DNA from: Dehalococcoidia bacterium
GTDB lineage: Bacteria > Chloroflexota > Dehalococcoidia > Dehalococcoidales > SURF-40
DNA: 36,006 nt
Reading direction: 5' to 3'
Assembly (NCBI GenBank): GCA_003599745.1
Contig: QZJL01000063.1
Span: 1-36,006 of the forward strand
Shown here: piece by piece, positions 2,482 through 20,181 of the stretch
Position numbering within the stretch: the first letter of the stretch is position 1
Layout of the letters: each line of letters opens with the position of its first letter
The notes under the pieces: model-generated
Database searches by the model: none
The model's input: the letters and a program-made list of their open reading frames with translations, nothing else
What the model was told of the DNA's origin: nothing
Program-made: the position numbers and the translations under genes

Positions 2482-3792
2482 CTAATGCACCGCCGGCCGG
2501 GCCGGCCGCTCGCCGGTAGCCAAAAGCTTGGCGCTGATTTCCGGCAGCTCTGCCTGGAACTGCGAGCGGTTATCAACCAGGATGTCGTTTATCATGCCGT
2601 GATAGTGGTTTTTGCTAATCCAGCCATAAAGGGTATCAATCTCCCCGTCACCCAGTGTCCGGTGAATCGGATTAACCATCTTCCCCCAGGCGCGGTACTG
2701 GGTACTGAACGAGTTATAGGAATGCTGCCAGTAGTTATTATGATGCTGGTTAGCGTCTTTCCCTTCAAGTGCCATTTTGCTGGCCTTAGCGGCGACATAG
2801 CCCAGGCCGAGCGCCCCTTTCATCGCCGTCTCGGCATAGGCGGTATTGTCGCCGAGGCAGATGACATTGCCGCGAGCGGTGTCTTTCACCTGCGGCCGGA
2901 GTTCCATGTTACAGGCCTGCCTTTCCTCTACCCGGGAATTTTTGAAAAACTGGGCAAACGGGGAATCGGTCATTATCTTCTGCAGGACATCAACCAGGTT
3001 GACCTGGCTGGTGACCGAGGTCGAGCAGCTCAACTGGTAACGTCCCGGCGGCCAGTGGCTCAAGTTAATGTTGCCTTTATGAATCGAGGGCATCAAGAAA
3101 GAAATGTGGCGCGGCTCGGGATAAGGCGAACTGATGCCGTCCAGAATGAAAGCCAGGAACTTCAACTGCGGCGCCCCGGCTGGCCGCCCCTCGTTGAAAC
3201 CAAGCTTCTCTACCAGTTGCGAGAAGGCGCCGTCGGCCACAATTACCCGGCTGGCTTCGATAGTATCTTCACCGGCGCCCGACACTAATTTTGCGCGGAT
3301 GCCGCCGGCCTGCTCTTCGATATCATCACAGCGGGTGCCGGCACGCACCTGGCAGCCCGCCTTGACCGCCTCATCCAGCAGGTCTTTGGCCAGGGTCTCT
3401 TTATCAATGACGAAGCTGGTTATCGCCAGGCTGTTCTCCTCTTCGCCCCAGGAGTTGCCACTCGGCGAAAACGACGTGGCATTGAAACAGGGGCCGAGAA
3501 CACCATGGTAGTCAATCGCGGCGTCTTCAGGTTGATTGGTGAGACGGATGACGGTATGACCTTTGTCCATTTCGAAAGTCAGGTTGGCGCGGTTAATTTC
3601 GATGTCGGTAGGGAGCTTGTTCGTCTTGAAAGCCCCCGGACCCAGACGCATGTTGCGGCTGCAATAGCGCCGGATGCGGGTGATTTCCATGTTTTTCTCC
3701 ACCAGCAGCACCCGCAGCCCGTCACGGGCCGCGGTTCGCGCCGACATCATGCCACCGGGCCCGCCCCCAACCACTAACAGGTCATACTTCAT
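2482..3792 (-). CDS. FAD-dependent oxidoreductase, geranylgeranyl reductase family
   Basis: A 436-residue flavoprotein. The N-terminus carries a Rossmann FAD-binding motif (VVGGGPGG, residues 8-15), and residues near 315-345 carry the second FAD motif (GNVICLGDN followed by a Gly/Ala-rich helix). This layout matches the geranylgeranyl reductase/p-hydroxybenzoate hydroxylase superfamily, whose members reduce isoprenoid chains of lipids or chlorophylls. The substrate here is not known. I place the start at the ATG at 3792, 7 bases behind AGGAG; a TTG 15 bases upstream would lie before that site. The gene has a good minus-strand promoter at 3887-3915 and is divergent from the MarR gene at 3957, so it is probably controlled by it. 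The spacing to the downstream binding-protein gene (55 bases) suggests one transcript. The last residues are Pro/Ala/Arg-rich and probably disordered. Confidence 0.82.
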   Translation of the reverse strand: MKYDLLVVGGGPGGMMSARTAARDGLRVLLVEKNMEITRIRRYCSRNMRLGPGAFKTNKLPTDIEINRANLTFEMDKGHTVIRLTNQPEDAAIDYHGVLGPCFNATSFSPSGNSWGEEENSLAITSFVIDKETLAKDLLDEAVKAGCQVRAGTRCDDIEEQAGGIRAKLVSGAGEDTIEASRVIVADGAFSQLVEKLGFNEGRPAGAPQLKFLAFILDGISSPYPEPRHISFLMPSIHKGNINLSHWPPGRYQLSCSTSVTSQVNLVDVLQKIMTDSPFAQFFKNSRVEERQACNMELRPQVKDTARGNVICLGDNTAYAETAMKGALGLGYVAAKASKMALEGKDANQHHNNYWQHSYNSFSTQYRAWGKMVNPIHRTLGDGEIDTLYGWISKNHYHGMINDILVDNRSQFQAELPEISAKLLATGERPARPAVH

Positions 3793-3829
3793 GACTTCTC
3801 CTTTCAAAACTTACGTGCCTGACACGGTA

Positions 3830-4571: not shown

Positions 4572-5567
4572 ATGAAATGGGATAGGGAAGCTGCCGACGA
4601 GTTTGTCAGCATGCCCATCGCCAAAAGCGCCAAGGAAAACACCAAGGTGTTCGCCGAAAAGCTGGCGCGCAAGGCCGGGAGCGCCCGGGTGACCCTAAAG
4701 GAAATCGAGGCTGCTAAAAAAATCACCTACGAAGACGTCACCGAGGAAAAACGGCAGCGCGAACTGGACAAGCGCATTGCCGAGGGCGAGGCCGACCTGC
4801 GGCAGCGCATCGAGAAAGAAGGCCGGGAAATCCTGGCGCGGGAGATTGACCTCTTCAACGTCGAGATGTGCCACGCCCAGTATTTCCGCTGCCGCTGCCA
4901 GCTCATTGAAGTCCGGGGACTGCAAAAGGAAATCGAGCAGAAACTTCGTGAGCTTAAAGTAAGCGAGATGGTGGCCGATTCGCTGCCCGACGACGAAAGG
5001 ATAATGGCTCACCACCGTGTCAGCGTTTCCATCTCGGGATGCCCCAATGGCTGCACCGGGCCGGAGACACGGCCATTCGGCATACACGGCATCTGCCCGC
5101 CAGTTATCACTGATGTCACCTGCAGTGAGTGCATGGCGTGTGTCCGGGCCTGCCGCCGTGGCGCCATCGCCATTCTGGACGGCGGGCCGGTGATAAGCGC
5201 CGCCCGCTGCGACCTCTGCGGAAGCTGCACCCGTACCTGCCCGACCGGCAAGCTGGTTGAAGAATCCAGAGGCTACCGCATCATGGTCGGCGGCAAGTTC
5301 GGCCGCTTTCACCGTGAGGGAAGCGAGCTTTTCCGCCAGGCCGACAAAGATAGCCTGATGGGTGCTCTCGAAGCCACCATCAACACCATCAAAGAAGAAT
5401 CAATTGGTCACGAAGACATCACCTCAATCGTCAACCGCATCGGCGTCGCCCCCATCTTCCGCAGGATGTACGCAAACGGCAAAGCCGCCAAGGCCAGCCC
5501 CCGGTCAAAACCGGCTGCCGCCCGGCAGAAACCTTCAGCCGACGCTGCCTGCGAGCATTGCCAGTAA
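4572..5567 (+). CDS. PCP_red / sulfite-reductase-type Fe-S / two-cluster ferredoxin fusion protein
   Basis: A 331-residue multi-domain redox protein. Residues 3-52 match the small PCP_red domain found at the C-terminus of the dark protochlorophyllide reductase B subunit (W-x2-EA at the start, then IEAAKK). A charged coiled-coil-like stretch follows (55-95). Residues 100-175 resemble the siroheme/[4Fe-4S] region of nitrite and sulfite reductases: C100, C107 and C109, then the SGCPNGC motif (C157, C161). The first pair is spaced unusually for that family (C-x6-C). Residues 184-223 form a ferredoxin with two CxxCxxCxxxC motifs (C184/187/190/194 and C213/216/219/223). The protein is too short to be a full sulfite reductase. 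A GGAGGAG site precedes the ATG. It heads a run of plus-strand genes with hemE and CbiK domains, so a role in electron transfer to a tetrapyrrole is plausible but inferred. Confidence 0.78.
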   Translation: MKWDREAADEFVSMPIAKSAKENTKVFAEKLARKAGSARVTLKEIEAAKKITYEDVTEEKRQRELDKRIAEGEADLRQRIEKEGREILAREIDLFNVEMCHAQYFRCRCQLIEVRGLQKEIEQKLRELKVSEMVADSLPDDERIMAHHRVSVSISGCPNGCTGPETRPFGIHGICPPVITDVTCSECMACVRACRRGAIAILDGGPVISAARCDLCGSCTRTCPTGKLVEESRGYRIMVGGKFGRFHREGSELFRQADKDSLMGALEATINTIKEESIGHEDITSIVNRIGVAPIFRRMYANGKAAKASPRSKPAAARQKPSADAACEHCQ

Positions 5568-5598: not shown

Positions 5599-6627
5599 AT
5601 GAACGACACGTTTTTGAAGGCCTGCCGCGGTGGGAAAACCGACTACACTCCGGTCTGGTTTATGCGGCAGGCGGCGCGGTTTTTACCCGAATACCGGAGG
5701 GTAGCGGCAAAAGCCGATTTTCTGACCATCTGCCGCACCCCGGAACTGGCCGCCGAGGTGACCGTCCAGCCGGTGGATGCCCTGGGGGTTGACGCCGCCA
5801 TCTTTTTCTCGGACATCACCACCACTATGGTGCCGATGGGCATCAAGCTCGAATATGCCGATAGCAAGGGGCCTTACTACCCCGAACCGCTGCGCACCGG
5901 AGCCGATATTGACCGGCTCACCGTCCCTGAGCCGGAAGAAGGCCTGGTCTTCGTCTACGAGGCTATCAAGATACTAAATAAAGAACTGGCCGACCGGGTG
6001 CCGCTCATCGGCTTTGCCGGCGCTCCCTTCACCATGTCAGCCTTCATGGTCGAGGGATCGATGAGCCACGCCTTCACCAAAACCCGCAGCCTCATCTTCA
6101 GCGAACCCGGGCTGTTCCATCGCCTGATGGATAAAGTTTCCCGTTTCACCGCCAGGTATCTGAAAGCCCAGGCGAAAGCCGGCGCCCGGGCGCTGATGCT
6201 ATTCGACTCTTTCGCCGGCATGCTCGGGCCAAAAGACTTCATCGAATTCAACTTCCCCTACCTCAAAAGTACCGTCGCCGACCTCAAGACCGCCGGGGTG
6301 CCGGTCATCTATTTCGGCCTCGGCCAGCACGGGGCGCTGGAACAGATTGGCAGCCTGGGAGCCGATGTCATCGGCGTTGACTACGGCATAAGTCTCGATA
6401 ATGCCGTTTCCCGGCTCGGCTCGGGCGTCACCGTCCAGGGCAACATCGAGCCCTACGTGCTCCTGCAGCCAGAAATGCCGATGCGCCAGCGGGTAGCAGA
6501 GGTGCTGGCGCAGGGACGGCTCGCCCGCGCCCACATCTTCAACCTGGGTCACGGCGTGCCGACAAACACCCCGGTAGAAAATGCCCGGGCGATGGTCGAG
6601 ATGGTACACGAGCTTTCTCGAAAATAA
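5599..6627 (+). CDS. hemE: Uroporphyrinogen decarboxylase
   Basis: A 342-residue cytoplasmic enzyme of usual HemE length. In the classical pathway it converts uroporphyrinogen III to coproporphyrinogen III. Visible family motifs are the N-terminal PVWFMRQAAR (canonical MRQAGR), FSDI with the catalytic Asp, GFAGAPFTMSAFMVEG, FDSFAG, and NLGHGVPTNTPVEN with the conserved His. Two changes stand out: Gly to Ala in the RQAGR signature, and Phe where the family usually has Tyr in the FAGAPWT...Y segment. The key Arg, Asp, Ser and His residues remain, so activity is likely, although methyltransferase members of the superfamily exist. The ATG at 5599 lies 8 bases behind AAAGGTGG. It sits between two Fe-S proteins, one with a PCP_red domain and one with a chelatase domain. 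Confidence 0.87.
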   Translation: MNDTFLKACRGGKTDYTPVWFMRQAARFLPEYRRVAAKADFLTICRTPELAAEVTVQPVDALGVDAAIFFSDITTTMVPMGIKLEYADSKGPYYPEPLRTGADIDRLTVPEPEEGLVFVYEAIKILNKELADRVPLIGFAGAPFTMSAFMVEGSMSHAFTKTRSLIFSEPGLFHRLMDKVSRFTARYLKAQAKAGARALMLFDSFAGMLGPKDFIEFNFPYLKSTVADLKTAGVPVIYFGLGQHGALEQIGSLGADVIGVDYGISLDNAVSRLGSGVTVQGNIEPYVLLQPEMPMRQRVAEVLAQGRLARAHIFNLGHGVPTNTPVENARAMVEMVHELSRK

Positions 6628-6651: not shown

Positions 6652-7722
6652 ATGGCTTATCGAATCAATGAAGAATGCGCCGCCTGCGGCGCATGCGAGC
6701 CGGAATGTCCCAACCATGCCATCAGCGAGGGGACAGAAATCTACGTTATTGACCCCCAGAAATGCACCGAGTGCCTGGGGTTTTATGATTCTCCCCGGTG
6801 CGCCAAGGTCTGCCCGGTGAACGCCCCCGTACCCGACCCGGCGCGCCGGGAAAGCGACCGCGACCTCCTGGCGCGCTTCCAGAAGCTGCACCCCGGGCTG
6901 GAACCAAAGGGCTTCGTGCTACGCACGGAAAATGACCGGCCGGTCATCGCCCTGGTGGCCGACGGTTCGGGCGACGCCGAAGGTCAGGCCGCCCTCGAAG
7001 AGCTTGACGACCACATCCGGCGACAGTTCCCCGATTACGACGTGGTTTGGGCGGTGCAGGCTTCCTATATGATTCAGGGGCTTAAATATAAGGGGCAAAC
7101 AACCCAGTTCAAGCGGGCGGTGCCGCTGATGCTGGCCGACGACCTGCTAAAACGGCTGGCGGCAGCGGGACGAACGAAAGTCGCCATGCAGCTCTTTATG
7201 AGCGGCGAGAGCAATTTCTCGAAAAACGCCATCAAAGCCGATACCCTGGGCATGGACGTAAAGTACGGCCTGCCGTTCCTGGCGGCGGCGCACCCGGAAA
7301 ACGAGCTTAAACTGATAAAGTCCCTGGAGCCGCTATTTGCCGGCGACGGCAAAACCGCCACCGTCCTGGTGGGGCACGGCTCGGAGAAAGATTTCGAGTA
7401 TAACGAGTGGTTCATCAACATTGATAAATACCTGCGGGAACACTACAAAAACGTCTTTTTGGGGACGATTCATGGCCCGCCGGGCACCGATTTTGTCGCC
7501 AGCGTCAAGGCCTCGGGCTGCGACAAGGTACGCTTTGTCTCACTGATGATGAGCCGGGGCGGCCATATGCCGCTCGACATCGTGAACGACACTAATCCCG
7601 AGTCCTGGAGCCGCCAGGTCGGCCTGCCCGCCGAGCCGGTTGACAGTTTCAGCACCAACCCGGCGCTCCGGGAATACTTCACAAGCAGCATCCGGACGCT
7701 GCTCGGCCAGTTCAAATCCTGA
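6652..7722 (+). CDS. Ferredoxin-CbiK fusion: sirohydrochlorin cobaltochelatase-like protein
   Basis: A 356-residue fusion. Residues 1-60 form a ferredoxin with two [4Fe-4S] motifs (C9/12/15/19 and C38/41/50/54; the second has a long insertion). Residues about 95-350 match the CbiK/anaerobic cobalt chelatase family: the VGHGS motif with H242, the TIHG segment with H274, and SRGGHMPLDIVND...SW with H305. In CbiK the metal site is His-Glu-His; here the middle position appears to be His. The family inserts a divalent metal (Co, Fe or Ni) into sirohydrochlorin or a related ring. The attached ferredoxin suggests that chelation is coupled to electron transfer or that the cluster has a structural role. 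The gene follows hemE by 24 bases with a GAAGGGAG site. A second CbiK without ferredoxin lies at 15202. Confidence 0.82.
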   Translation: MAYRINEECAACGACEPECPNHAISEGTEIYVIDPQKCTECLGFYDSPRCAKVCPVNAPVPDPARRESDRDLLARFQKLHPGLEPKGFVLRTENDRPVIALVADGSGDAEGQAALEELDDHIRRQFPDYDVVWAVQASYMIQGLKYKGQTTQFKRAVPLMLADDLLKRLAAAGRTKVAMQLFMSGESNFSKNAIKADTLGMDVKYGLPFLAAAHPENELKLIKSLEPLFAGDGKTATVLVGHGSEKDFEYNEWFINIDKYLREHYKNVFLGTIHGPPGTDFVASVKASGCDKVRFVSLMMSRGGHMPLDIVNDTNPESWSRQVGLPAEPVDSFSTNPALREYFTSSIRTLLGQFKS

Positions 7723-11395: not shown

Positions 11396-11677
11396 TCATT
11401 GCGGGTTTTTTAGCTCTTCCAGCGCAGTGCGGATAGCCTCGGTGATGGGGATTTGCTCGGTGCAAATGCCGTCGCAGCCCTCGCACAGGGTACAGTCCTC
11501 AAGTATCCGGCGCGCCATTTTATCCGGCGGCGTTCCGTCAAGCATCTTGCGGATGATGAGCAGGCGGTACATCGGCGAAAATCGCTCGTCCAGGTAAAGC
11601 TGGTAGCTGTGGCAGACGTCAAAGCACATGCGGCAGGCCCCGCAACGGATAATCTCATCACGTATGGACTCGTCCAT
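11396..11677 (-). CDS. Small two-cluster [4Fe-4S] protein, HdrC/GlpC-like
   Basis: A 93-residue protein with two cysteine motifs, CGACRMCFDVC (residues 12-22) and CTLCEGCDGIC (residues 62-72), separated by helices (MYRLLIIRKML). This matches the ferredoxin half of HdrC, GlpC and LldE-type proteins, which pass electrons to a partner with CCG domains. No HdrB, HdrA or CCG domain gene is in the window. The ATG lies 3 bases after the stop of the flavodoxin-TAXI gene, with GAGGGG upstream inside that gene, so translation is probably coupled. It may be an electron donor to the flavodoxin domains encoded upstream in the same minus-strand transcript. Confidence 0.8.
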   Translation of the reverse strand: MDESIRDEIIRCGACRMCFDVCHSYQLYLDERFSPMYRLLIIRKMLDGTPPDKMARRILEDCTLCEGCDGICTEQIPITEAIRTALEELKNPQ

Positions 11678-11680
11678 AGG

Positions 11681-13270
11681 CTAAAGCCCCTCGAACGGCC
11701 TCAGCGGGGGTAGCGCCTTTTCTTTCTTATAGCCTTCCCACAGGTCAACCCATGCCGGGTTTTCGGCACGCACCGGGATGCCGCGCTCGTCGGCGGTATC
11801 AATGCACTCCTGATAGGCCTCGCAGTAGCGGTCAACCAGGGCGGCGTTAGCCTGGCTGCGTTCTTCGAGGGCGTTAGTCCAGACGCCCTCTTCCTTGAGG
11901 GTCTGCCGCAACCCTTCGTGCACCGGTAAAAACGTCTGTTTCAGCTCGGCCAGGACGGTCTCAAGGTTAGCCCACTTCAGCTTCTCGTGGCGGTCTTTGA
12001 TGACATCGTAATGGCGGTGAAGCCAGCTCACGGTGCGGTAGACCAGGATTCTGTCGGTGTCGCGGTGCGCCAGCATCAGGTGGGTACCCACGATGCCCCA
12101 TTTGCCGATGCAGGAGGGCACGCCGACAAACATCACTCCGAATCCCTCCATCGGGTCAACTTCGTGAAAACGTTTGGCGCCTTCGGGGTCTTTTTCGGCG
12201 TTCATCTCAAGCCATCGAATGCCCCCGGACTGTTTCTCCGCCTCGGCAACCACCGGTGACAGCGGCATGGCAAAGGCGAGGTCGGTTCTCCCCTCTATCA
12301 CCGAACGCACCGTGTCGGCGTAAGATTTATGCTCAATCCACTTGATATCCGCGGGGCTGACTTTTGCCCAGGCGAGCAGCCCTTCCACGATGTTACGGCT
12401 CGCCGGGTTACCCGCCAGGCTGGCAAGCCGAGTGCCCGGCTTGACGTCGTAAATCTCTTTGATAGGCGAGTCGCCGCGCACCATGAAACCGGCGTTGTTT
12501 TTCGACTGCGCCCAGACGGCGCAGACGGGGAAGGGGCCGCCCTCGCGGTCGGCATATTCGCCTTCCGCCGTCAGCATCTGGCCGGTCTCGACGCGCGCCC
12601 CGGTGGTATAGTGGAAACGCCCCGCCTTGATATGTCTGAAACAATTTGAGGCGCTTTCATCGGAAGTCACGATGAGCTTTGAACCAACCTCCTGTGCCAG
12701 CGGGTCACCCCAGCCGTGAGCAACCTCGGCGCCAATCCCCTTCCAGGCGATGACGCGCATTTTCGGCGGCCACTTCCAGCGCCCCGACTTCTTCGGCGGG
12801 TCGAGGTCAACGTAATCGGCCGCCGGCGCCAACTCCGCCATCTGCCGCCCGAGCTTGCGGCAGTTAACCAGGTCGTCGGTGGTAGGGTCTTCAAAAGCGA
12901 CCACGGTGGGGAAGACACGCCGGAAATTAAGCTGCTTCATCAGGTTATCAACCGTGGCGATACAGGCATCGCCGCCGACCCCGGCGCTCACCACCCAGGC
13001 ATAAGGCTTGATGCCAATCTCTTTCTTCATCTTGAGCCAGTCGTAGTCGTAGCGGTCCCAGTAGTCGCGGAACATGCCCGATTCCTTCTGGAAATAATTG
13101 CCGGTACCCATGATGACGGCGTCGCAGTTGACCAGGTCTTCCCGCCTGGCATCCAGCGTCTTCCGGACGATAGCCTCGCTCCCGGCCTCGCGCACTCCCT
13201 CGGCAGCGGCGAGTATCATCTTCTCGGTATGGCCGCTGTGCGAGTAATAGAGAAAGAGGACCCTTTTCAT
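11681..13270 (-). CDS. Flavodoxin-TAXI solute-binding-like fusion protein, cytoplasmic
   Basis: A 529-residue fusion I do not recognise as a described family. Residues 1-150 are a flavodoxin: FLYYSHSGHTEKM is the FMN phosphate loop and GTGNYF a flavin-contact loop. After a Pro/Lys linker, residues about 165-525 resemble TAXI-type TRAP transporter binding proteins (KWPPKMRVIAWKG opening; YDVKPGTRLASLAG; VIEGRTDLAFAMP; end at ENPAWVDLWEGYKK). TAXI proteins are normally exported, but this one begins with flavodoxin and has no signal peptide, so it should act inside the cell. The proteins encoded at 16007 and 17145 are paralogues of its TAXI half. GGAGGT lies 8 bases before the ATG. No TRAP membrane subunit is present. 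Confidence 0.8.
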   Translation of the reverse strand: MKRVLFLYYSHSGHTEKMILAAAEGVREAGSEAIVRKTLDARREDLVNCDAVIMGTGNYFQKESGMFRDYWDRYDYDWLKMKKEIGIKPYAWVVSAGVGGDACIATVDNLMKQLNFRRVFPTVVAFEDPTTDDLVNCRKLGRQMAELAPAADYVDLDPPKKSGRWKWPPKMRVIAWKGIGAEVAHGWGDPLAQEVGSKLIVTSDESASNCFRHIKAGRFHYTTGARVETGQMLTAEGEYADREGGPFPVCAVWAQSKNNAGFMVRGDSPIKEIYDVKPGTRLASLAGNPASRNIVEGLLAWAKVSPADIKWIEHKSYADTVRSVIEGRTDLAFAMPLSPVVAEAEKQSGGIRWLEMNAEKDPEGAKRFHEVDPMEGFGVMFVGVPSCIGKWGIVGTHLMLAHRDTDRILVYRTVSWLHRHYDVIKDRHEKLKWANLETVLAELKQTFLPVHEGLRQTLKEEGVWTNALEERSQANAALVDRYCEAYQECIDTADERGIPVRAENPAWVDLWEGYKKEKALPPLRPFEGL

Positions 13271-13299
13271 ATTATGTTACCTCCGGTCTATTTTTGACT

Positions 13300-14511
13300 T
13301 TATTGCGAAAGAAACTGGCTGGAAACTGCGGCAAACCCGTCCAGCGCCCGGGTGACACCATCGAGCCAGACCGCCAGTACCGGGGCATAACAATCCAGGC
13401 CGCGCTCCAGCCGGCACTCGACCCCGGCGGCTTTGAGCCGGCCCGCTAGTTCCGTCATCAATGCCCCGCACTCCCCGCTTACCGGCGTCATGGCAAGCGG
13501 GCGCAGGCACACCGCGCTCCCCAAAGCTCCGACTTCGCGAGTCAGGCCGTCCGGGTCGCCGGTAAAAGCCAGCGCGCCCTGCCGCCTCAGATAACGGTCG
13601 AGACGCAAAAGCGAAGGACCAGGCCCGCCGCCCGACGGGCAGACGACGGTTACGGTGCCAGTTTCACGTCCGGTAAGCATCGCCTTTGCCACCCGCGCTA
13701 GACTATCCGGAGAGCCAAGGAGCGGCCAGGCATACTCTACGGTAAGGCCAGGGGCAGGCACAGCGAGAATGCTTCGGCAGAGATCGTCATCGGCCAGCGT
13801 CAAAGGCGCCACCACCAGGTTGGTCTTCCCCTGTGCGGCCAGCTCGCGGAAAACGCCGTCCAAATCACCCACCGCAACCAGCCTTACCTCGTGCTCCCGG
13901 AAACGGTCGCAGGCTATCTCCAGAGTTTTGGCGGCGTCATCACCGCCGGCTTGAACGATGAGGATAACCGGCTTCGGGACGGCCTCGGCCTTCTTCGTCG
14001 GTACATCAATCGGCACCGGCACGTAGAGGTCAACCATTACGCTGGCATCAGCGCTCACCAGCTCCCGCCCGCGCTCCCGGCACCGCGCCAGCACCTCTTC
14101 CGACGGCCGGCCTTTCGAGGTTACCGGCTCGAAAGCCTTTTTCAGGTTCATGCCGGCGCTCATGCGCTCGATGATGGGCAACTGCCGGTAGGGGTTTGCC
14201 GAGGCCGAAAGACAGCAGAAGTACGGCCGGGGCTTCATCCCGCCGGCCTTGTTTTTCTTGTTGAGACGCATGTGCTCGCGGTCGAACCAGTCCTTGAGGC
14301 GGCCATGAATGTAGCCGTAGTAGTTGCCGCTGCCCCAGATGAGGGCGTCGCACTGTTCGACATCGGCGCCGGTGGCATCGGCGGCCTCCTTGATGTTGAC
14401 GGTAGCGCCCGCCGCCTGAGCGCCTTCCGCCGCCGCCCGTACCATCAACTCGGTATTACCGCTGCGCGAAACGTAAATGATGCTGATAACCCGGTTGGCT
14501 ATTTTCTCCAT
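13300..14511 (-). CDS. Flavodoxin fused to a degenerate CbiK-like domain
   Basis: A 403-residue fusion. Residues about 8-160 are a flavodoxin (IIYVSRSGNTELM loop; WGSGNYYG). Residues about 180-395 follow the CbiK layout seen in the proteins encoded at 6652 and 15202: VILIVQAGG opening, VTVVCPSGGGPG where those have LVGHGS, and CLRPLAMTPVSGECG where the second copy has VPLMITAGEHV. The catalytic or metal-binding His positions are replaced (Pro292 and Cys348), and the middle ligand is absent. I infer a chelatase-like domain that has lost chelatase activity but may still bind a tetrapyrrole. The domain match is by eye and needs a profile search. The ribosome site is weak (GGGGAA). The gene is divergent from the second MarR gene with a promoter at 14638-14665. 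Confidence 0.72.
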   Translation of the reverse strand: MEKIANRVISIIYVSRSGNTELMVRAAAEGAQAAGATVNIKEAADATGADVEQCDALIWGSGNYYGYIHGRLKDWFDREHMRLNKKNKAGGMKPRPYFCCLSASANPYRQLPIIERMSAGMNLKKAFEPVTSKGRPSEEVLARCRERGRELVSADASVMVDLYVPVPIDVPTKKAEAVPKPVILIVQAGGDDAAKTLEIACDRFREHEVRLVAVGDLDGVFRELAAQGKTNLVVAPLTLADDDLCRSILAVPAPGLTVEYAWPLLGSPDSLARVAKAMLTGRETGTVTVVCPSGGGPGPSLLRLDRYLRRQGALAFTGDPDGLTREVGALGSAVCLRPLAMTPVSGECGALMTELAGRLKAAGVECRLERGLDCYAPVLAVWLDGVTRALDGFAAVSSQFLSQ

Positions 14512-14557: not shown

Positions 14558-14646
14558 TTGGTATCCAACGACGCCCCATTTGAAATGGGCTAGCGAAAAC
14601 GTATTGACAATTATCTTGGTATCCTTTAATATTTCGAATTATACCA
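14558..14646. promoter_or_regulatory. Candidate MarR half-sites (TTGGTATCC direct repeat plus inverted copy)
   Basis: TTGGTATCC occurs at 14558-14566 and again at 14616-14624, and the inverted core ATACCA is at 14641-14646. The pair TGGTAT (14617-14622) / ATACCA (14641-14646) brackets both -10 boxes. Placement suits a repressor site; no binding evidence exists. Confidence 0.4.
14604..14632 (+). promoter_or_regulatory. Sigma-70 type promoter for the second MarR gene
   Basis: TTGACA (14604-14609), a 17-base spacer and TAATAT (14627-14632), about 67 bases before the MarR start. The start site would be near 14639, inside the -10 box of the opposing promoter. Confidence 0.75.
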
Positions 14647-14665
14647 TAAAATAGCTCCGAGTCAA
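14638..14665 (-). promoter_or_regulatory. Sigma-70 type promoter for the flavodoxin-CbiK-like / flavodoxin-TAXI operon
   Basis: On the minus strand, TTGACT (14665-14660), a 16-base spacer and TATAAT (14643-14638). It faces the MarR promoter: the two -10 boxes are only 5 bases apart and the transcripts would overlap. One protein bound here could shut both. Confidence 0.72.
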
Positions 14666-14698: not shown

Positions 14699-15178
14699 AT
14701 GCCCCCGATACCGAGAGACGTTTTCAACGAGAGCCTGCACCTTCTGAGCGCGGTAAACCGCTCCCTGTACGAAGCCCGCAACGACGAACTCCGGCCTCTG
14801 GGCATAACCAGCCAGCAGTCGGCTATGCTGCACCAGATTAAGTCACTGGGTGACGAAGCCACCGTGACCAACGTCGCCCAGCGCCTCCACCGCGACGTAA
14901 GCTCAGTCTCGGATATGCTGGCGCGCCTGGAAAAACGGGGGCTGGTGCGCCGGTTTATTGACCCCGGCGACCGCAGACAGGTCTACGTGTTTCTCACCGA
15001 AAAAGGCCAGGAGGTACGCGACCAAAGCCAGAAGGAAAACAGCATCATCAAGCGGGCCAGGTCGCAGCTCGGCGATGGTGAAATTGAGGAACTCAACCGG
15101 ATATTGAAAGAGCTTTACCGAATCTGTCTGGAAAACCCGAAAGTCCCGGAGAGCGAAACCGAAGTCAGCCTTAGATAA
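14699..15178 (+). CDS. MarR family transcriptional regulator, second copy
   Basis: A 159-residue winged-helix regulator. The helix-turn-helix reads ATVTNVAQRLHRDVSSVSDM, followed by LARLEKRGLVRR and the wing with the conserved Asp/Arg (DPGDRRQVYVFLTEKG). The conserved wing makes this a more typical MarR than the copy at 3957. The ATG at 14699 lies behind CGAGGT. It is divergent from the flavodoxin-CbiK-like gene and is followed after 23 bases by the second CbiK and the TAXI genes, so it probably controls both arms. No sensory cysteine is obvious. Confidence 0.92.
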   Translation: MPPIPRDVFNESLHLLSAVNRSLYEARNDELRPLGITSQQSAMLHQIKSLGDEATVTNVAQRLHRDVSSVSDMLARLEKRGLVRRFIDPGDRRQVYVFLTEKGQEVRDQSQKENSIIKRARSQLGDGEIEELNRILKELYRICLENPKVPESETEVSLR

Positions 15179-15201: not shown

Positions 15202-15996
15202 ATGCCTGTTAACCGACCGGTAATCATCATCGCCGCCTACGGCACCGGCGAACCCGAGGCGCAAAAATGCCTGGAGGCCCTAGACGGTCAGCTCCGCCGC
15301 CATTTCGCCGGCTACGAGGTAAGGTGGGCCATCCTGGTGGACTGGCTCATCAAGCGGTTTAAGAAAGAGGGCAAAATAAACCTTTTTGCCCGGGGCGAGC
15401 CGGTACAGGGGCTTGCTGAGCTCTATAAGGAGCTGAAAGCCGCCGGGAAGACCGAGGCGGTGGTGCAGGGGCTGCTGGTGCACGAGGGTTCAATCAGTGA
15501 CGGCGTCTACCAGATGCCGACCGAGGGGCTGCGGGTCGAATACGGCAAGTCTCTCCTGGATGCCGCCGGGCGCAACGTTGACGAGGTGCTTAAAGCCGTC
15601 TCGCCCTATTTCGGCAAAGAAAAAGAGATTACCATCCTCATCGGGCACGGCTCGGGCGACGACGAGCGCGCCAACGTGCCTTTCCAGCGCATGGATAGTT
15701 ATCTGAAAGAGCATTATGCCGACGCCTACATGTGCATGATTCACGGCTCGCCCTCGCCCGATGAAATTCTGCCCGGAATTGACAGCGCGCGCTTCCGCCG
15801 CGTGGTCTTCGTGCCCCTGATGATTACCGCCGGCGAGCACGTGCTGCACGAGGTCGTCGCCGATAATCCCAAATCCTGGGTCGGGCGGCTGAAACTGCCC
15901 TATAAAGTTGCCCCCAGCTTCAGCGAGATACCCGAGGTCGTGGCGATATATATCAAAAGCATCGAAGACGCCTTGCGGCGGCTGGGCGCTGGATAG
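15202..15996 (+). CDS. CbiK family sirohydrochlorin cobaltochelatase-like protein
   Basis: A 264-residue stand-alone CbiK-type protein, the usual length for the family. Opening strand PVIIIAAYGTG; LIGHGSGDD with H149; CMIHGSPSP with H181; and PLMITAGEHVLHEVVADNPKSW with H213. Known CbiK enzymes use His-Glu-His to bind the metal; as in the copy at 6652, the middle ligand position here seems to be His (IHG). The family inserts Co, Ni or Fe into sirohydrochlorin-type rings. No signal peptide, unlike the periplasmic CbiK of some sulfate reducers. AGAAGGTG precedes the ATG, and an AGGAGG directly after the stop serves the next gene. Confidence 0.82.
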   Translation: MPVNRPVIIIAAYGTGEPEAQKCLEALDGQLRRHFAGYEVRWAILVDWLIKRFKKEGKINLFARGEPVQGLAELYKELKAAGKTEAVVQGLLVHEGSISDGVYQMPTEGLRVEYGKSLLDAAGRNVDEVLKAVSPYFGKEKEITILIGHGSGDDERANVPFQRMDSYLKEHYADAYMCMIHGSPSPDEILPGIDSARFRRVVFVPLMITAGEHVLHEVVADNPKSWVGRLKLPYKVAPSFSEIPEVVAIYIKSIEDALRRLGAG

Positions 15997-16006
15997 GAGG
16001 CCATTT

Positions 16007-17143
16007 TTGAAAGCCAGTCGAAACTACCGCAAAGAGTATAAATGGCCGGCAGAGTATCACATGATTACCTGGCTGGGTACCCCGGTCATCGCCGCCCACA
16101 GCTGGGCCGACCTGCTTGCCCAAGATACCGGTATGAAGATGCACATCGGCGGCACCACCATGACGGTGAACCGTTTCCGCTGGCTGCGCTCCGGGCTTTC
16201 CCAGCAGACCGAGGGCACGCCTTCCGAGACCAGTCAGATGGTGATGGCCGACCGCCGCTACGCGGTGCGCGACGGCGGGCCCTTCCCGGTGCGGGTACTG
16301 TGGATTAAGTCCAAGGGCAACGCCACTTTCTTCACCCGCGGCGATTCCAAAATCAAAACGCCGCACGGCATCAAGCCGGGCACGCGCATCACCGACATGA
16401 ACCCCTACGTGGCGGCGACGCGGGTGGTTGACGGCCTGCTCGCCTGGGCACAGGTTAAACATGAGGACATCGTGTGGGTGCCGGTATACAACTCCGACGA
16501 TAACATCGGGGCGGTGGTCGAGGGGCGAGCGGACATCTGTTTCAGCATGCCCTCGACAACACAGGCGGCCAGGGCTGCCACCAACCCTTTCGGGCTATCC
16601 TGCGTCGAGCTTAATGCCGAGGCCGACCCCGAGGGCGCCCGCCGCTACCGGCAGTGTGACCCCCTCATCAACTTCGGCATCATCCCGAAAGAGGTGCTGC
16701 CGGCTATCGGCGGCAAGTGGGGTACCCAGGGGCTGAACCTGGAGTTTACCAGCGCCCGCGAGCCGGCGGAGCAGGTCTACCAAATCGCCCGCTGGCTCGA
16801 CGAAAACCACGAACGCTACAAAGACGGCAACATCGCCAACCTCTTCCGCACCCGCCAGTGGCTCATGAAAGCCCTCGAGGAAACCTTCGTGCCGGTGCAC
16901 GAAGGCCTGAAAATGTATCTGCGGGACCTGGGGCTCTGGACGGCCAAACACGAAAAGCGCGACCGCAAGAACCTGGAAATCCTTAACGGCTACATCACCG
17001 AATTCCAGAAGATCATCTGGGCGGCAGACGATAAGGGGCTTGACCTGGTGCCGGAAAACGAAGAATGGATACATTTCTGGGAAAGCCATCGCGATAAGAC
17101 CCTGCCGCCCATCAAGCTCTGGGCAAATTTAGAGGAGGAATAG
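16007..17143 (+). CDS. TAXI family solute-binding-like protein without signal peptide
   Basis: A 378-residue protein. The start is TTG at 16007, 7 bases behind AGGAGG; longer reading starts inside the preceding gene. The N-terminus (MKASRNYRKEYKWPAEY) is charged, so no export signal is visible. The body resembles TAXI-type TRAP binding proteins: the KWP-x-EY opening, HGIKPGTRITDMN, VVEGRADICFSMPS, and the end ENEEWIHFWESHRDK. It is a paralogue of the next gene product and of the TAXI half of the protein encoded at 11681. The TAXI fold binds small organic anions outside the cell; here an internal role such as ligand sensing or carrying is inferred. No TRAP membrane component is near. Confidence 0.8.
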   Translation: MKASRNYRKEYKWPAEYHMITWLGTPVIAAHSWADLLAQDTGMKMHIGGTTMTVNRFRWLRSGLSQQTEGTPSETSQMVMADRRYAVRDGGPFPVRVLWIKSKGNATFFTRGDSKIKTPHGIKPGTRITDMNPYVAATRVVDGLLAWAQVKHEDIVWVPVYNSDDNIGAVVEGRADICFSMPSTTQAARAATNPFGLSCVELNAEADPEGARRYRQCDPLINFGIIPKEVLPAIGGKWGTQGLNLEFTSAREPAEQVYQIARWLDENHERYKDGNIANLFRTRQWLMKALEETFVPVHEGLKMYLRDLGLWTAKHEKRDRKNLEILNGYITEFQKIIWAADDKGLDLVPENEEWIHFWESHRDKTLPPIKLWANLEEE

Positions 17144-17144
17144 C

Positions 17145-18269
17145 ATGAATCAAGAAAAACAATTCCAATGGCCCGAGAGGTTCCGGGTGATTGCCTGGAA
17201 AGGCGTCGGCGTGGAGGTCACCAAGGCCTGGGGCGGCCTGCTGGCGAAGGACAAAGGTATGAGGCTGGTGGTCGCCCCCGAGGTGAACAGCGTTAACCGC
17301 TTCAAGTGGGTCGGGCTGCGGCTTTTCCACATCACCGCCGGCGGCACCACCGAGACCAGCCAGATGATTGAGGCCGACCGCAAGTACTCCGCCCGCGACA
17401 CTGGCCCTTTCCCGGTGCGCGCCGTCTGGGCGCAGTCTCGGTCGCACTCCGGCTATTTCGTGCGGGCGGACTCGCCCATCAAAACCCTCTACGACATCAA
17501 ACCGGGCACGCGTTTCGCCGATATGTCACACTTTGTCGCCAACGTGCGCATCGTGGAGGCCTTCCTCGCCTGGGCGAAGGTTAACCCCAAAGACCTCGTC
17601 TGGGTGCGGGGCGACAGCTACAAGGAGAATGTGGATTCGGTACTCGAAGGCCGGGCGGACGTCTGCTTCGGCATCCCCACCTCACCGGCGGTCTTCGAGG
17701 CCGAAAAGCACCCAATCGGCATAAGATGGATTGATATGAACTCGGCGGAGGACCCCGAGGGCGCGGCGCGCTTCCGGGTAATTGACCCCCTGGTTGACTT
17801 CGGGCCGATGTTCAACGGCGTGCCCTCCAGCATCGGACGCTGGGGCACCGTCGGCACGAGCCTCTACGTCACTCACCGAGATACCGATACCGGCCTGGTC
17901 TATGGCATCGCGAAATGGATGCACGACAACTACCCGCGTATCAAGCAAAGCCACTCCTGGGGCACCTGGATGAACCTGGAGACCCTGCTCGACGAACTGG
18001 GGCGGACTTTCATACCGGTGCACCCAGGGCTGGAGCAGTTCCTTAAAGAGACCGGCAAATGGGATAAGACGCTAGAGACACATAGCCGGGTTAACGCCGC
18101 CCTCATTGACCGCTACCACGAGGCCTTCCAGGACTGCAAGGACATAGCCGATGATAAAGAGGTTGTCATTGACCCGGAAAACCCCGAATGGACCAAGATG
18201 TGGGAGGACTATAAGAAAGAGCTGGGGATTCCCCAAATCGTCATGACGCCGAAGGACGCCAGAGCCTGA
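17145..18269 (+). CDS. TAXI family solute-binding-like protein without signal peptide, second copy
   Basis: A 374-residue paralogue of the previous protein. The ATG at 17145 is one base after the previous stop, behind GAGGAGG, so the two are translated together. The start MNQEKQFQWPERFRVIAWKG has no hydrophobic signal. Shared blocks are YDIKPGTRFADM, VLEGRADVCFGIP, DPEGAARF and the end ENPEWTKMWEDYKKE. It is closer to the TAXI half of the flavodoxin fusion (RVIAWKG, RDTDTGLVYG versus HRDTDRILVYR) than to its direct neighbour. The last residues lead into a gene-free 184-base stretch. Confidence 0.8.
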   Translation: MNQEKQFQWPERFRVIAWKGVGVEVTKAWGGLLAKDKGMRLVVAPEVNSVNRFKWVGLRLFHITAGGTTETSQMIEADRKYSARDTGPFPVRAVWAQSRSHSGYFVRADSPIKTLYDIKPGTRFADMSHFVANVRIVEAFLAWAKVNPKDLVWVRGDSYKENVDSVLEGRADVCFGIPTSPAVFEAEKHPIGIRWIDMNSAEDPEGAARFRVIDPLVDFGPMFNGVPSSIGRWGTVGTSLYVTHRDTDTGLVYGIAKWMHDNYPRIKQSHSWGTWMNLETLLDELGRTFIPVHPGLEQFLKETGKWDKTLETHSRVNAALIDRYHEAFQDCKDIADDKEVVIDPENPEWTKMWEDYKKELGIPQIVMTPKDARA

Positions 18270-18393: not shown

Positions 18394-18453
18394 GCTTGAC
18401 AAACTTAGTTGAAGCGGGCTTTTCGGCAGCTAAAACTATTAGGAGGTGGTGTG

Positions 18454-20181
18454 ATGAAAAGGTGGACGGTTTTAATGGTGGTGGCGGTGTTACTGGCGCT
18501 CACGGCCTGCCGCCCGGCGACACCGACCCAGACGACTCCAGAACAAACCCCGGTCGGCGAAACGCCGACCCTGGTTAAAGAGGGTGACAAAACTCCGGTC
18601 TCCACCGGAGTTCTCACGCCTAACCCCGTGGAAACTTCGATGCCCATCTATGGTGGCACCCTTTCTTACGCCACCAAGCTCCCCACCAGTTTCGACGGCC
18701 ATAAAAAATTGGCTTATTCACAATCTTCTTATATGCCGGTCTTCAACCAGCTGGTGATTTACAACCTCGATTACAAGGAGACCACTCCCGAGAATCTCAT
18801 CGGTGACCTGGCCGAGAGCTGGGGAATAAGCGATGACGGCACCGAAATCACCTTCAACCTGCGCCAGGGGATAAAGTGGCACGACGGCATGCCCTTTAGC
18901 GCCGATGACGTGGTCTACAGCCTGGACAAGATGACCGATGTAAACCGTAGCGCCATCTCGGACTGGTTCCCGGCCTACGAGAGGGCCGAGAAGGTCGGTG
19001 ACTACACGGTGAAAGTCCATCTCAAGTACCCGTCGGCGGGCTTCTTAACAGTCCTGGCTGAGGGCGAAGCGGTCATCCAGCCCAAGCACCTGGCGGGCAC
19101 CGATGACCAGACGAAGGAGTTCATGGTCGGCACCGGCCCCTTCATGGTGGACGAATTCGTGGTGCGCGTTCATATCAAGTACCAGCGGAACGCGGACTAC
19201 TTCAAAAAAGACAAGTACGGCAACCAGCTGCCTTACCTCAACCAGTTAATAATCTACGAGGCCCAGAATGTGGTGGTTAACGATATGCTGATTGGCCGGC
19301 GGATTGACTTCCGGGGGCCCACCGCCGGCGTCGCCACAGTCAATTCCTATCAGCAACTGACGGAGGGGGCGCCGGAGTTGCTCTGGCAGAAGCTGGAACT
19401 GGATTTCAGCGCGGTGATGTTCCTCAATACCGAGCATGCGCCACTGGACGACATCCGGGTGCGACGCGCCCTGGGGCTGATCGTTGACCAGGAGAGCCTG
19501 ATTGTCGGCTTCACCGGCGATGCCCGGTTCGGCATCACCGATATCGGCATCCTGGGACCTTCCCTGGGCCTGCACGAAGAAGAGATTCGTCAGCTGATGG
19601 GCTGGGACAAGCCCTATGAGGAAAGGATCGCCGAGGCTCAGCAACTGATGGCCGAAGCCGGCTACCCCAAAGGCTTCAAGCTGAACATGCTGTCCGACGG
19701 GGGGGCCACTATGACCGAGGGCAGCCTGTCCCTGGTATTCGCCGACGCGCTGCGCAAGTACCTGAATATTGACGCCGAGGTGAACATCGGCCTCGGGCAG
19801 ACCGAAATCTACAAGCGCCGGGCAGAAGGCAACTTCGACCTCTACACATCGTCGCTGAGAGTCGAGCGAGACCCGACCCGGCTTGCCGAGTATGCCACCA
19901 CCGGCGGTTTCGCCAACTACTCGCATTACTCCAACCCCGAGGTGGACAGGATACTCGGCGGGCTGGACCGCATCTTCGACCCGGTCGAAAGGCGGGAGGC
20001 GGTCTGGGAAGTCGAGCGCATACTGCTCACCGACCTGCCGATGCTACCCACCGGGACGTTCATCGGCAACCTGATGCCCTATTATCCCCACGTGAAAAAC
20101 CTGCGGTGGGTGAACATGCGCTACTCCAATACGGTGCGTCTTGAGGACGTCTGGATTGACGAATCGCTACGCGTCAAGTAG
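18454..20181 (+). CDS. ABC transporter substrate-binding lipoprotein, family 5 (DppA/OppA/NikA type)
   Basis: A 575-residue exported binding protein. I start at the ATG at 18454, 7 bases after AGGAGG; a frame opening 45 bases earlier includes the ribosome site itself. The signal peptide ends in lipobox ALTAC (Cys19), then comes a Thr/Pro linker. Family-5 blocks are visible: LAESWGISDDGTEITFNLR, WHDGMPFSADDVVYSLDK and VGTGPFMVDEF. It is a paralogue of the protein encoded at 240-2426 but lacks that protein's C-terminal extension. The two copies bracket the redox/tetrapyrrole cluster. No permease or ATPase of its own is in the window. Ligands of the family include oligopeptides, nickel chelates and haem. 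Confidence 0.9.
   Translation: MKRWTVLMVVAVLLALTACRPATPTQTTPEQTPVGETPTLVKEGDKTPVSTGVLTPNPVETSMPIYGGTLSYATKLPTSFDGHKKLAYSQSSYMPVFNQLVIYNLDYKETTPENLIGDLAESWGISDDGTEITFNLRQGIKWHDGMPFSADDVVYSLDKMTDVNRSAISDWFPAYERAEKVGDYTVKVHLKYPSAGFLTVLAEGEAVIQPKHLAGTDDQTKEFMVGTGPFMVDEFVVRVHIKYQRNADYFKKDKYGNQLPYLNQLIIYEAQNVVVNDMLIGRRIDFRGPTAGVATVNSYQQLTEGAPELLWQKLELDFSAVMFLNTEHAPLDDIRVRRALGLIVDQESLIVGFTGDARFGITDIGILGPSLGLHEEEIRQLMGWDKPYEERIAEAQQLMAEAGYPKGFKLNMLSDGGATMTEGSLSLVFADALRKYLNIDAEVNIGLGQTEIYKRRAEGNFDLYTSSLRVERDPTRLAEYATTGGFANYSHYSNPEVDRILGGLDRIFDPVERREAVWEVERILLTDLPMLPTGTFIGNLMPYYPHVKNLRWVNMRYSNTVRLEDVWIDESLRVK

Follow-up and report, generated by a model that had tools for sequence, protein, structure and literature searches.

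A flavodoxin-TAXI fusion gene and a family of TAXI proteins without export signals in a Dehalococcoidia bacterium

Solute-binding proteins (SBPs) are usually described as extracytoplasmic. Thi5, the HMP-P synthase, which has the NMT1/THI5 fold, is a cytosolic enzyme. In a survey of 49 proteomes only about 1% of the retrieved SBP-type proteins were cytosolic (PMC9602780), and according to the paper on the TAXI-GltS system, whose binding protein BP0403 carries an extra N-terminal domain, every other SBP is either secreted or held by a lipid anchor (PMC12344293). For VcGluP, a TAXI-type TRAP binding protein, the roles of individual residues have been described, including the contacts H123, E125, Y200 and M201 (PMC11574862). 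Our literature search found no papers on cytoplasmic TAXI proteins, or on TAXI proteins occurring together with AhbD.

The window analysed here is a stretch of 36,006 nucleotides from a Dehalococcoidia bacterium (assembly GCA_003599745.1, contig QZJL01000063.1). At the coordinates that the initial annotation gave without a strand, 11681..13270, and on the minus strand, a single uninterrupted frame with an ATG start and zero internal stops, preceded by a Shine-Dalgarno sequence GGAGGT (13279..13284), encodes a protein of 529 aa (P0001). It consists of a flavodoxin domain (residues 1-150; 12821..13270), an inter-domain linker (residues 151-165; 12776..12820) and a TAXI-type binding-protein domain with a helical C-terminal extension (residues 166-529; 11684..12775), all on the same strand. 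The flavodoxin domain was recognised by TIGR01753 (E 4.9e-9 over residues 5-145), by the phosphate-loop motif SHSGHT and the further FMN-loop (isoalloxazine loop) motifs GTGNYF and VSAGVGG in the translation, and by the dN against a second copy described below; the best flavodoxin-type NCBIfam match had an E value of 2e-9, and all flavodoxin matches, that to TIGR01753 included, were under the curated cut-offs. In the second part PF16868 (NMT1_3) matched residues 179-462 above its cut-off (E 2.8e-8, 34.2 bits, cut-off 27), whereas TIGR02122 (TRAP_TAXI) scored 61.6 bits (E 5.6e-17), under its cut-off of 84.35, thus the TAXI part is a divergent member of this family. A PHROGs search gave no match, and the fusion protein has neither a lipobox nor a hydrophobic N-terminal stretch.

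An AlphaFold2 model computed from an alignment of the paralogues of the same genome had pLDDT values over 90 at most positions beyond about residue 170. It agreed with a second model, for which flavodoxin and exported TAXI rows were added, and in which residues 151-163 were of low confidence (pLDDT <50); the flavodoxin part of this second model was less confident (block means 51-90) because few sequences cover it. The models support an anatomy of two separately folded domains joined by a predicted flexible linker. When the PDB was searched with Foldseek, the top seven matches were all TAXI-type structures (9ibp, found twice, 8u79, 4ddd, 1us4, 9ibo and 8s4j; TM by target 0.68-0.75), and the profile match of the TAXI part to 8s4j had an E value of 4.4e-6. 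Next in the ranking were Thi5, which superposed poorly (TM by target ~0.45, rmsd ~14 Å), and other NMT1-like proteins. The initial annotation, made from the letters of the DNA, had read the protein as a flavodoxin followed by a TAXI-type domain with a type II binding-protein fold; the profile matches, the predicted structure and the fold search bear out both the order of the domains and the fold.

A frame error joining two genes, which the initial annotation had named as a danger to this reading, is contradicted by a second flavodoxin-TAXI copy on contig C71 (L013:199-1380). This copy is 74% identical to the fusion over the first 260 residues and has the identical junction, in frame. Since the same flavodoxin-linker-TAXI junction occurs on a second contig, a frame error can be rejected, and so can a chimera. 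The C71 copy shows an in-frame loss of ~136 residues within its TAXI part, which may reflect either pseudogene formation or an assembly fault. Between the two copies the flavodoxin parts differ with a dN of 0.10 at saturated dS, and the N-terminal portions of the TAXI parts with a dN/dS of ~0.18; these substitution values indicate that purifying selection is acting on both parts. That the fusion is nevertheless an artefact, be it a frame error, a chimeric assembly or a pseudogene, we consider very improbable: the assembly is a draft (1.56 Mb in 74 contigs, 78% complete) and the C71 copy carries a deletion, but the junction is shared by two contigs at 74% identity, selection appears to maintain both domains, and the frame is clean with a ribosome site in front of it.

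The search of this genome, which alone represents its family in the set of genomes covered, identified 18 further TAXI genes with 34-51% identity (two of them cut by contig ends), along with the second fusion copy and three TAXI fragments. With the fusion there are 19 near-complete TAXI genes, none of which encodes a lipobox or a hydrophobic N-terminus, whereas all 18 exported homologues with a readable N-terminus have a lipobox. The cytoplasmic location that had been predicted for the fusion is thus supported for all TAXI proteins of the genome. Two stand-alone signal-less paralogues lie in the window, at 16007..17143 (plus strand; TTG start assigned in this analysis) and 17145..18269 (plus strand; PF16868, E 1.1e-15). 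A conserved WP motif is found ~7-37 residues from the start in all rows of our alignment A1 except the fusion, and the fusion junction coincides with the mature N-terminus of the family (WKWP). DctM, the TRAP permease family, is present in the three relatives checked and was not found in the 78% complete genome, nor was a TRAP permease seen in those of its TAXI stretches that were read. The absence of DctM, like that of HemB and HemC discussed below, may partly stem from the incompleteness of the genome; the absence of signal peptides does not. The fusion is known from this one genome; overlapping samples of 61 relatives and of 156 genomes of the order, 393 of the class and 400 of the phylum contained none.

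In other genomes, homologues from the order and the class show 32-37% identity across the TAXI part. Wherever enough flanking sequence is available, the exported TAXI gene is adjoined by a TRAP fused permease; the one tested matched TIGR02123 with an E value of 5e-122. An AhbD-related radical SAM protein accompanies TAXI-TRAP in twelve loci, in two gene orders, nine of them recognised by phmmer (L050, L051, L088, L089, L090, L091, L092, L093, L095) and three judged from the neighbouring ORF (L063, L064, L070). Two of the radical SAM proteins were tested against the AhbD equivalog and scored 450 and 447 bits, under the cut-off of 500, so the family is called AhbD-like here, with heme b synthase as a candidate role only. 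The triad of AhbD-like radical SAM protein, TRAP fused permease and TAXI lipoprotein is conserved in other genomes. In the relative G006, which contributes six of the 20 exported sequences, TAXI-TRAP adjoins FAD oxidoreductases and one UbiD, not a radical SAM protein. Many copies of FAD oxidoreductases related to that encoded at 2482-3807 of the window were observed near TAXI or TAXI-TRAP genes of G006 (L044, L045, L048, L049).

Four exported TAXI proteins encoded on plasmids served as the outgroup of a rooted tree. In it, the 19 TAXI sequences of the genome fell within the exported ones as a single clade (100/100), and the TAXI domain of the fusion was the sister of the 17145-18269 product (100/99); the exported rows close to this clade are placed tentatively. 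The most economical reading of the tree would be that export was lost once, that the signal-less form then expanded, and that the fusion arose late, at what had been the mature N-terminus.

Judged by alignment, the fusion differs from VcGluP at contact positions. In the profile alignment with 8s4j, which does not include the region of the glutamate-site residues Y45 and Q93, the VcGluP contacts H123, E125, Y200 and M201 align with S256, N258, M335 and P336 of the fusion. The contacts Y200 and M201 are glutamate contacts. Of the 19 members from this genome, 18 have K or R at residue 257, which aligns with T124 between the contacts H123 and E125; of the 20 exported ones, 15 have L or M there. 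This shift suggests that the ligand has changed and is probably anionic. Near-invariant polar residues of the clade are R242, K257, K271, R367, H428 and D361.

The fusion gene is the middle one of a minus-strand operon encoding a flavodoxin-CbiK-like fusion, the flavodoxin-TAXI fusion and a ferredoxin, with gaps of 29 and 3 bp. The upstream product (13300..14511; 403 aa) combines a flavodoxin with a degenerate CbiK-type domain (PF12724, E 1.5e-7); by BLASTP it is 30% identical to a CbiK paralogue over 203 columns (E 9e-14), and the CbiK catalytic or metal-site histidines are replaced in the alignment. The downstream gene (11396..11677) encodes a 4Fe-4S ferredoxin-like protein of 93 aa (PF13534, E 5.6e-9) with cysteine motifs. 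Divergently, on the plus strand, lie genes for a MarR-family regulator (14699..15178; PF01047, E 1.5e-12), a CbiK-type chelatase family protein (15202..15996; PF06180, E 9.2e-25), the two signal-less TAXI paralogues and an SBP_bac_5 lipoprotein (18409..20181; PF00496, E 7.6e-59). Promoter-like sites on both strands, all of them consensus matches only, flank an AT-rich palindrome (14629..14642) that is a candidate MarR operator; the minus-strand site (14638..14665) reads TTGACT-16-TATAAT with TG and agrees with the consensus in 11 of 12 positions. The left part of the window contains, on the plus strand, genes for a NIR_SIR siroheme-reductase-like protein with 4Fe-4S domains (4572..5567; PF01077, E 5.2e-10), a uroporphyrinogen decarboxylase of the HemE type (5599..6627; PF01208, E 4.2e-121) and a ferredoxin-CbiK fusion (6652..7722; PF06180, E 7.6e-18), as well as genes for PPOX-type and FMN_red proteins. 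The ferredoxin-CbiK fusion keeps the GHG and GxH motifs.

Genome-wide, four of the six CbiK genes (P 7e-4) and nine of the 18 SBP_bac_5 genes (P 5e-6) are within 5 kb of a TAXI gene, the probabilities assuming random placement, which makes the SBP_bac_5 lipoprotein a recurring TAXI neighbour. Some neighbouring genes were assigned by similarity to proteins of the window, and many ORFs are unnamed. Many of the 18 SBP_bac_5 genes are close to TAXI genes, and a general reading of part of their flanks revealed no recognisable permease. Small lipoproteins with collagen-like Gly-X-X or similar sequences recur beside SBP_bac_5 and TAXI genes (L016:5668-6258, the only one tested with PF01391; L018:11955-12185; L022:2572-3135; L022:4925-5536; L013:5094-5435). 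At L021:2-4343 three ORFs for BchI/BchD/cobaltochelatase-type ATPases stand in a row; the stretch of contig that holds them also carries an SBP_bac_5 gene and a flavodoxin.

The initial annotation had also pointed to the fold shared with porphobilinogen deaminase (PBGD). HemC (PF01379) had no match in the genome, hence none at the fusion gene, and HemB was not found in it either. We considered whether a TAXI protein might replace the deaminase and rejected the idea: HemC is equally missing from seven of nine relatives tested, in which the TAXI proteins are lipoproteins, one of these genomes being 99% complete in a single contig and carrying one lipoprotein TAXI, therefore its absence is uninformative about TAXI. 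PBGD was also not among the first 50 Foldseek matches of the fusion. The tetrapyrrole connection comes from the gene neighbours, not from the shared fold: in its favour are UroD, the two CbiK-type genes and NIR_SIR in the window, the nearness of CbiK genes to TAXI genes, and the AhbD-like radical SAM proteins beside exported homologues. The hint drawn from PBGD is not supported; of the function suggested by the initial annotation, a putative reductase or sensor holding its substrate in the TAXI cleft, it is the redox setting that finds support, with the FMN-type flavodoxin, the ferredoxin gene just downstream and the second flavodoxin fusion upstream.

With a little less than even confidence we propose that the fusion binds a ligand in the cytoplasm and couples this to redox chemistry, as a reductase module that holds its substrate, within a region of tetrapyrrole salvage or modification. 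As far as sequence comparison supports the scenario, the TAXI lipoprotein of a TRAP transporter would have lost its export signal in this lineage and multiplied to ~20 copies, in one of which an FMN-type flavodoxin would have replaced the former signal region and tether; the resulting gene would have its place in the compact operon with the flavodoxin-CbiK-like fusion and the ferredoxin, divergent from the MarR-CbiK-TAXI-TAXI operon. The ferredoxin could then reduce the FMN presumably bound by the flavodoxin domain, the TAXI domain would close around an anionic small molecule, most probably one of the carboxylate-bearing compounds, tetrapyrroles among them, that the neighbouring enzymes handle, and the tethered flavodoxin might pass electrons to the ligand, or to a CbiK-type or siroheme-type partner receiving it. 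Several observations count against this reading: TAXI-TRAP in G006 stands beside FAD oxidoreductases and UbiD, a protein associated with aromatic acids, several TAXI paralogues of the genome have no tetrapyrrole neighbours, and some CbiK-type paralogues, the fused one included, are without the usual metal-binding histidines, so the chelatase theme may be ancestral only. We think it rather doubtful that the signal-less clade is a new class of cytoplasmic enzymes or carriers with a binding-protein fold for modified tetrapyrroles, with the fusion as a self-contained FMN-dependent reductase of a tetrapyrrole held in the cleft.

It is also conceivable, if unlikely, that the TAXI domain serves for sensing or regulation, its ligand altering its shape and so tuning the destination of the electrons without itself being reduced. 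The flexible linker between separately folded domains, the common use of binding-protein folds as sensor domains, the nearby MarR regulators and the fact that some SBP-type Pfam matches are cytosolic proteins with other functions (PMC9602780) would fit such a ligand-gated flavodoxin; however, the flavodoxin would be its sole output domain, and the 18 sisters without a partner domain agree better with a binding or catalytic role than with a sensor built around a flavodoxin. A similarly low likelihood can be given to the clade having turned into enzymes, as Thi5 did in the NMT1/THI5 fold, with the flavodoxin as a built-in electron source. Thi5 structures were the next best in the PDB behind the TAXI proteins, the near-invariant polar residues are specific to the clade, and there are ~20 diverged cytoplasmic copies, but no catalytic motif was identified and, as noted, Thi5 superposes poorly. 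Ordinary transport, by an intracellular orphan TAXI protein serving a transporter or by a protein exported without a recognisable signal, seems improbable. Orphan TRAP binding proteins are known (PMC12344293) and SBP_bac_5 lipoproteins cluster with the TAXI genes, yet neither DctM nor a permease beside the TAXI genes read was found, 19 of 19 proteins are without a signal, and flavodoxins are cytoplasmic cofactor proteins.

Under the reading that we prefer, the redox-coupled binding protein, an entire TAXI family would have moved inside the cell once and expanded ~20-fold in a genome in which no TRAP permease was found, and one member would have gained an electron carrier, so that a familiar binding fold seems to have taken on a novel redox-linked role within the cell. 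With exported and cytoplasmic sister proteins at hand, it can be tested directly how a transport partner came to function inside the cell, and how its ligand changed along with this.

It is instructive to compare the fusion with the systems that resemble it. With the TAXI-type TRAP binding proteins VcGluP (8s4j/9ibo) and TtGluBP (1us4/8u79; PMC11574862) it shares the fold (TM by target ~0.7), PF16868 and an HxG that is conserved where the TAXI profile nears its end; unlike them, it is predicted to be cytoplasmic, is fused to a flavodoxin, has a C-terminal helical extension and was found without a TRAP permease. The closest homologues found, with the same WP domain start, are in the loci of the same class that combine a lipoprotein TAXI with TRAP_fused and an AhbD-like protein; these are exported, have a permease, mostly occur once per genome (six in G006) and have no flavodoxin. 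Thi5 shows that a TAXI-like fold can serve as a cytosolic enzyme, but it is not close in sequence, superposes less well, and no shared active site was recognised. Flavodoxins and WrbA-like FMN proteins have in common with the fusion a short-chain flavodoxin domain with FMN loop motifs; the fusion differs in scoring under the family cut-offs and in being joined to a binding-protein domain. BP0403 is similar in that a TAXI domain has recruited an N-terminal domain and there is no TRAP permease gene. However, BP0403 is exported as a lipoprotein and works with a membrane transporter, whereas the fusion would work in the cytoplasm, and the domain added to it is a flavodoxin.
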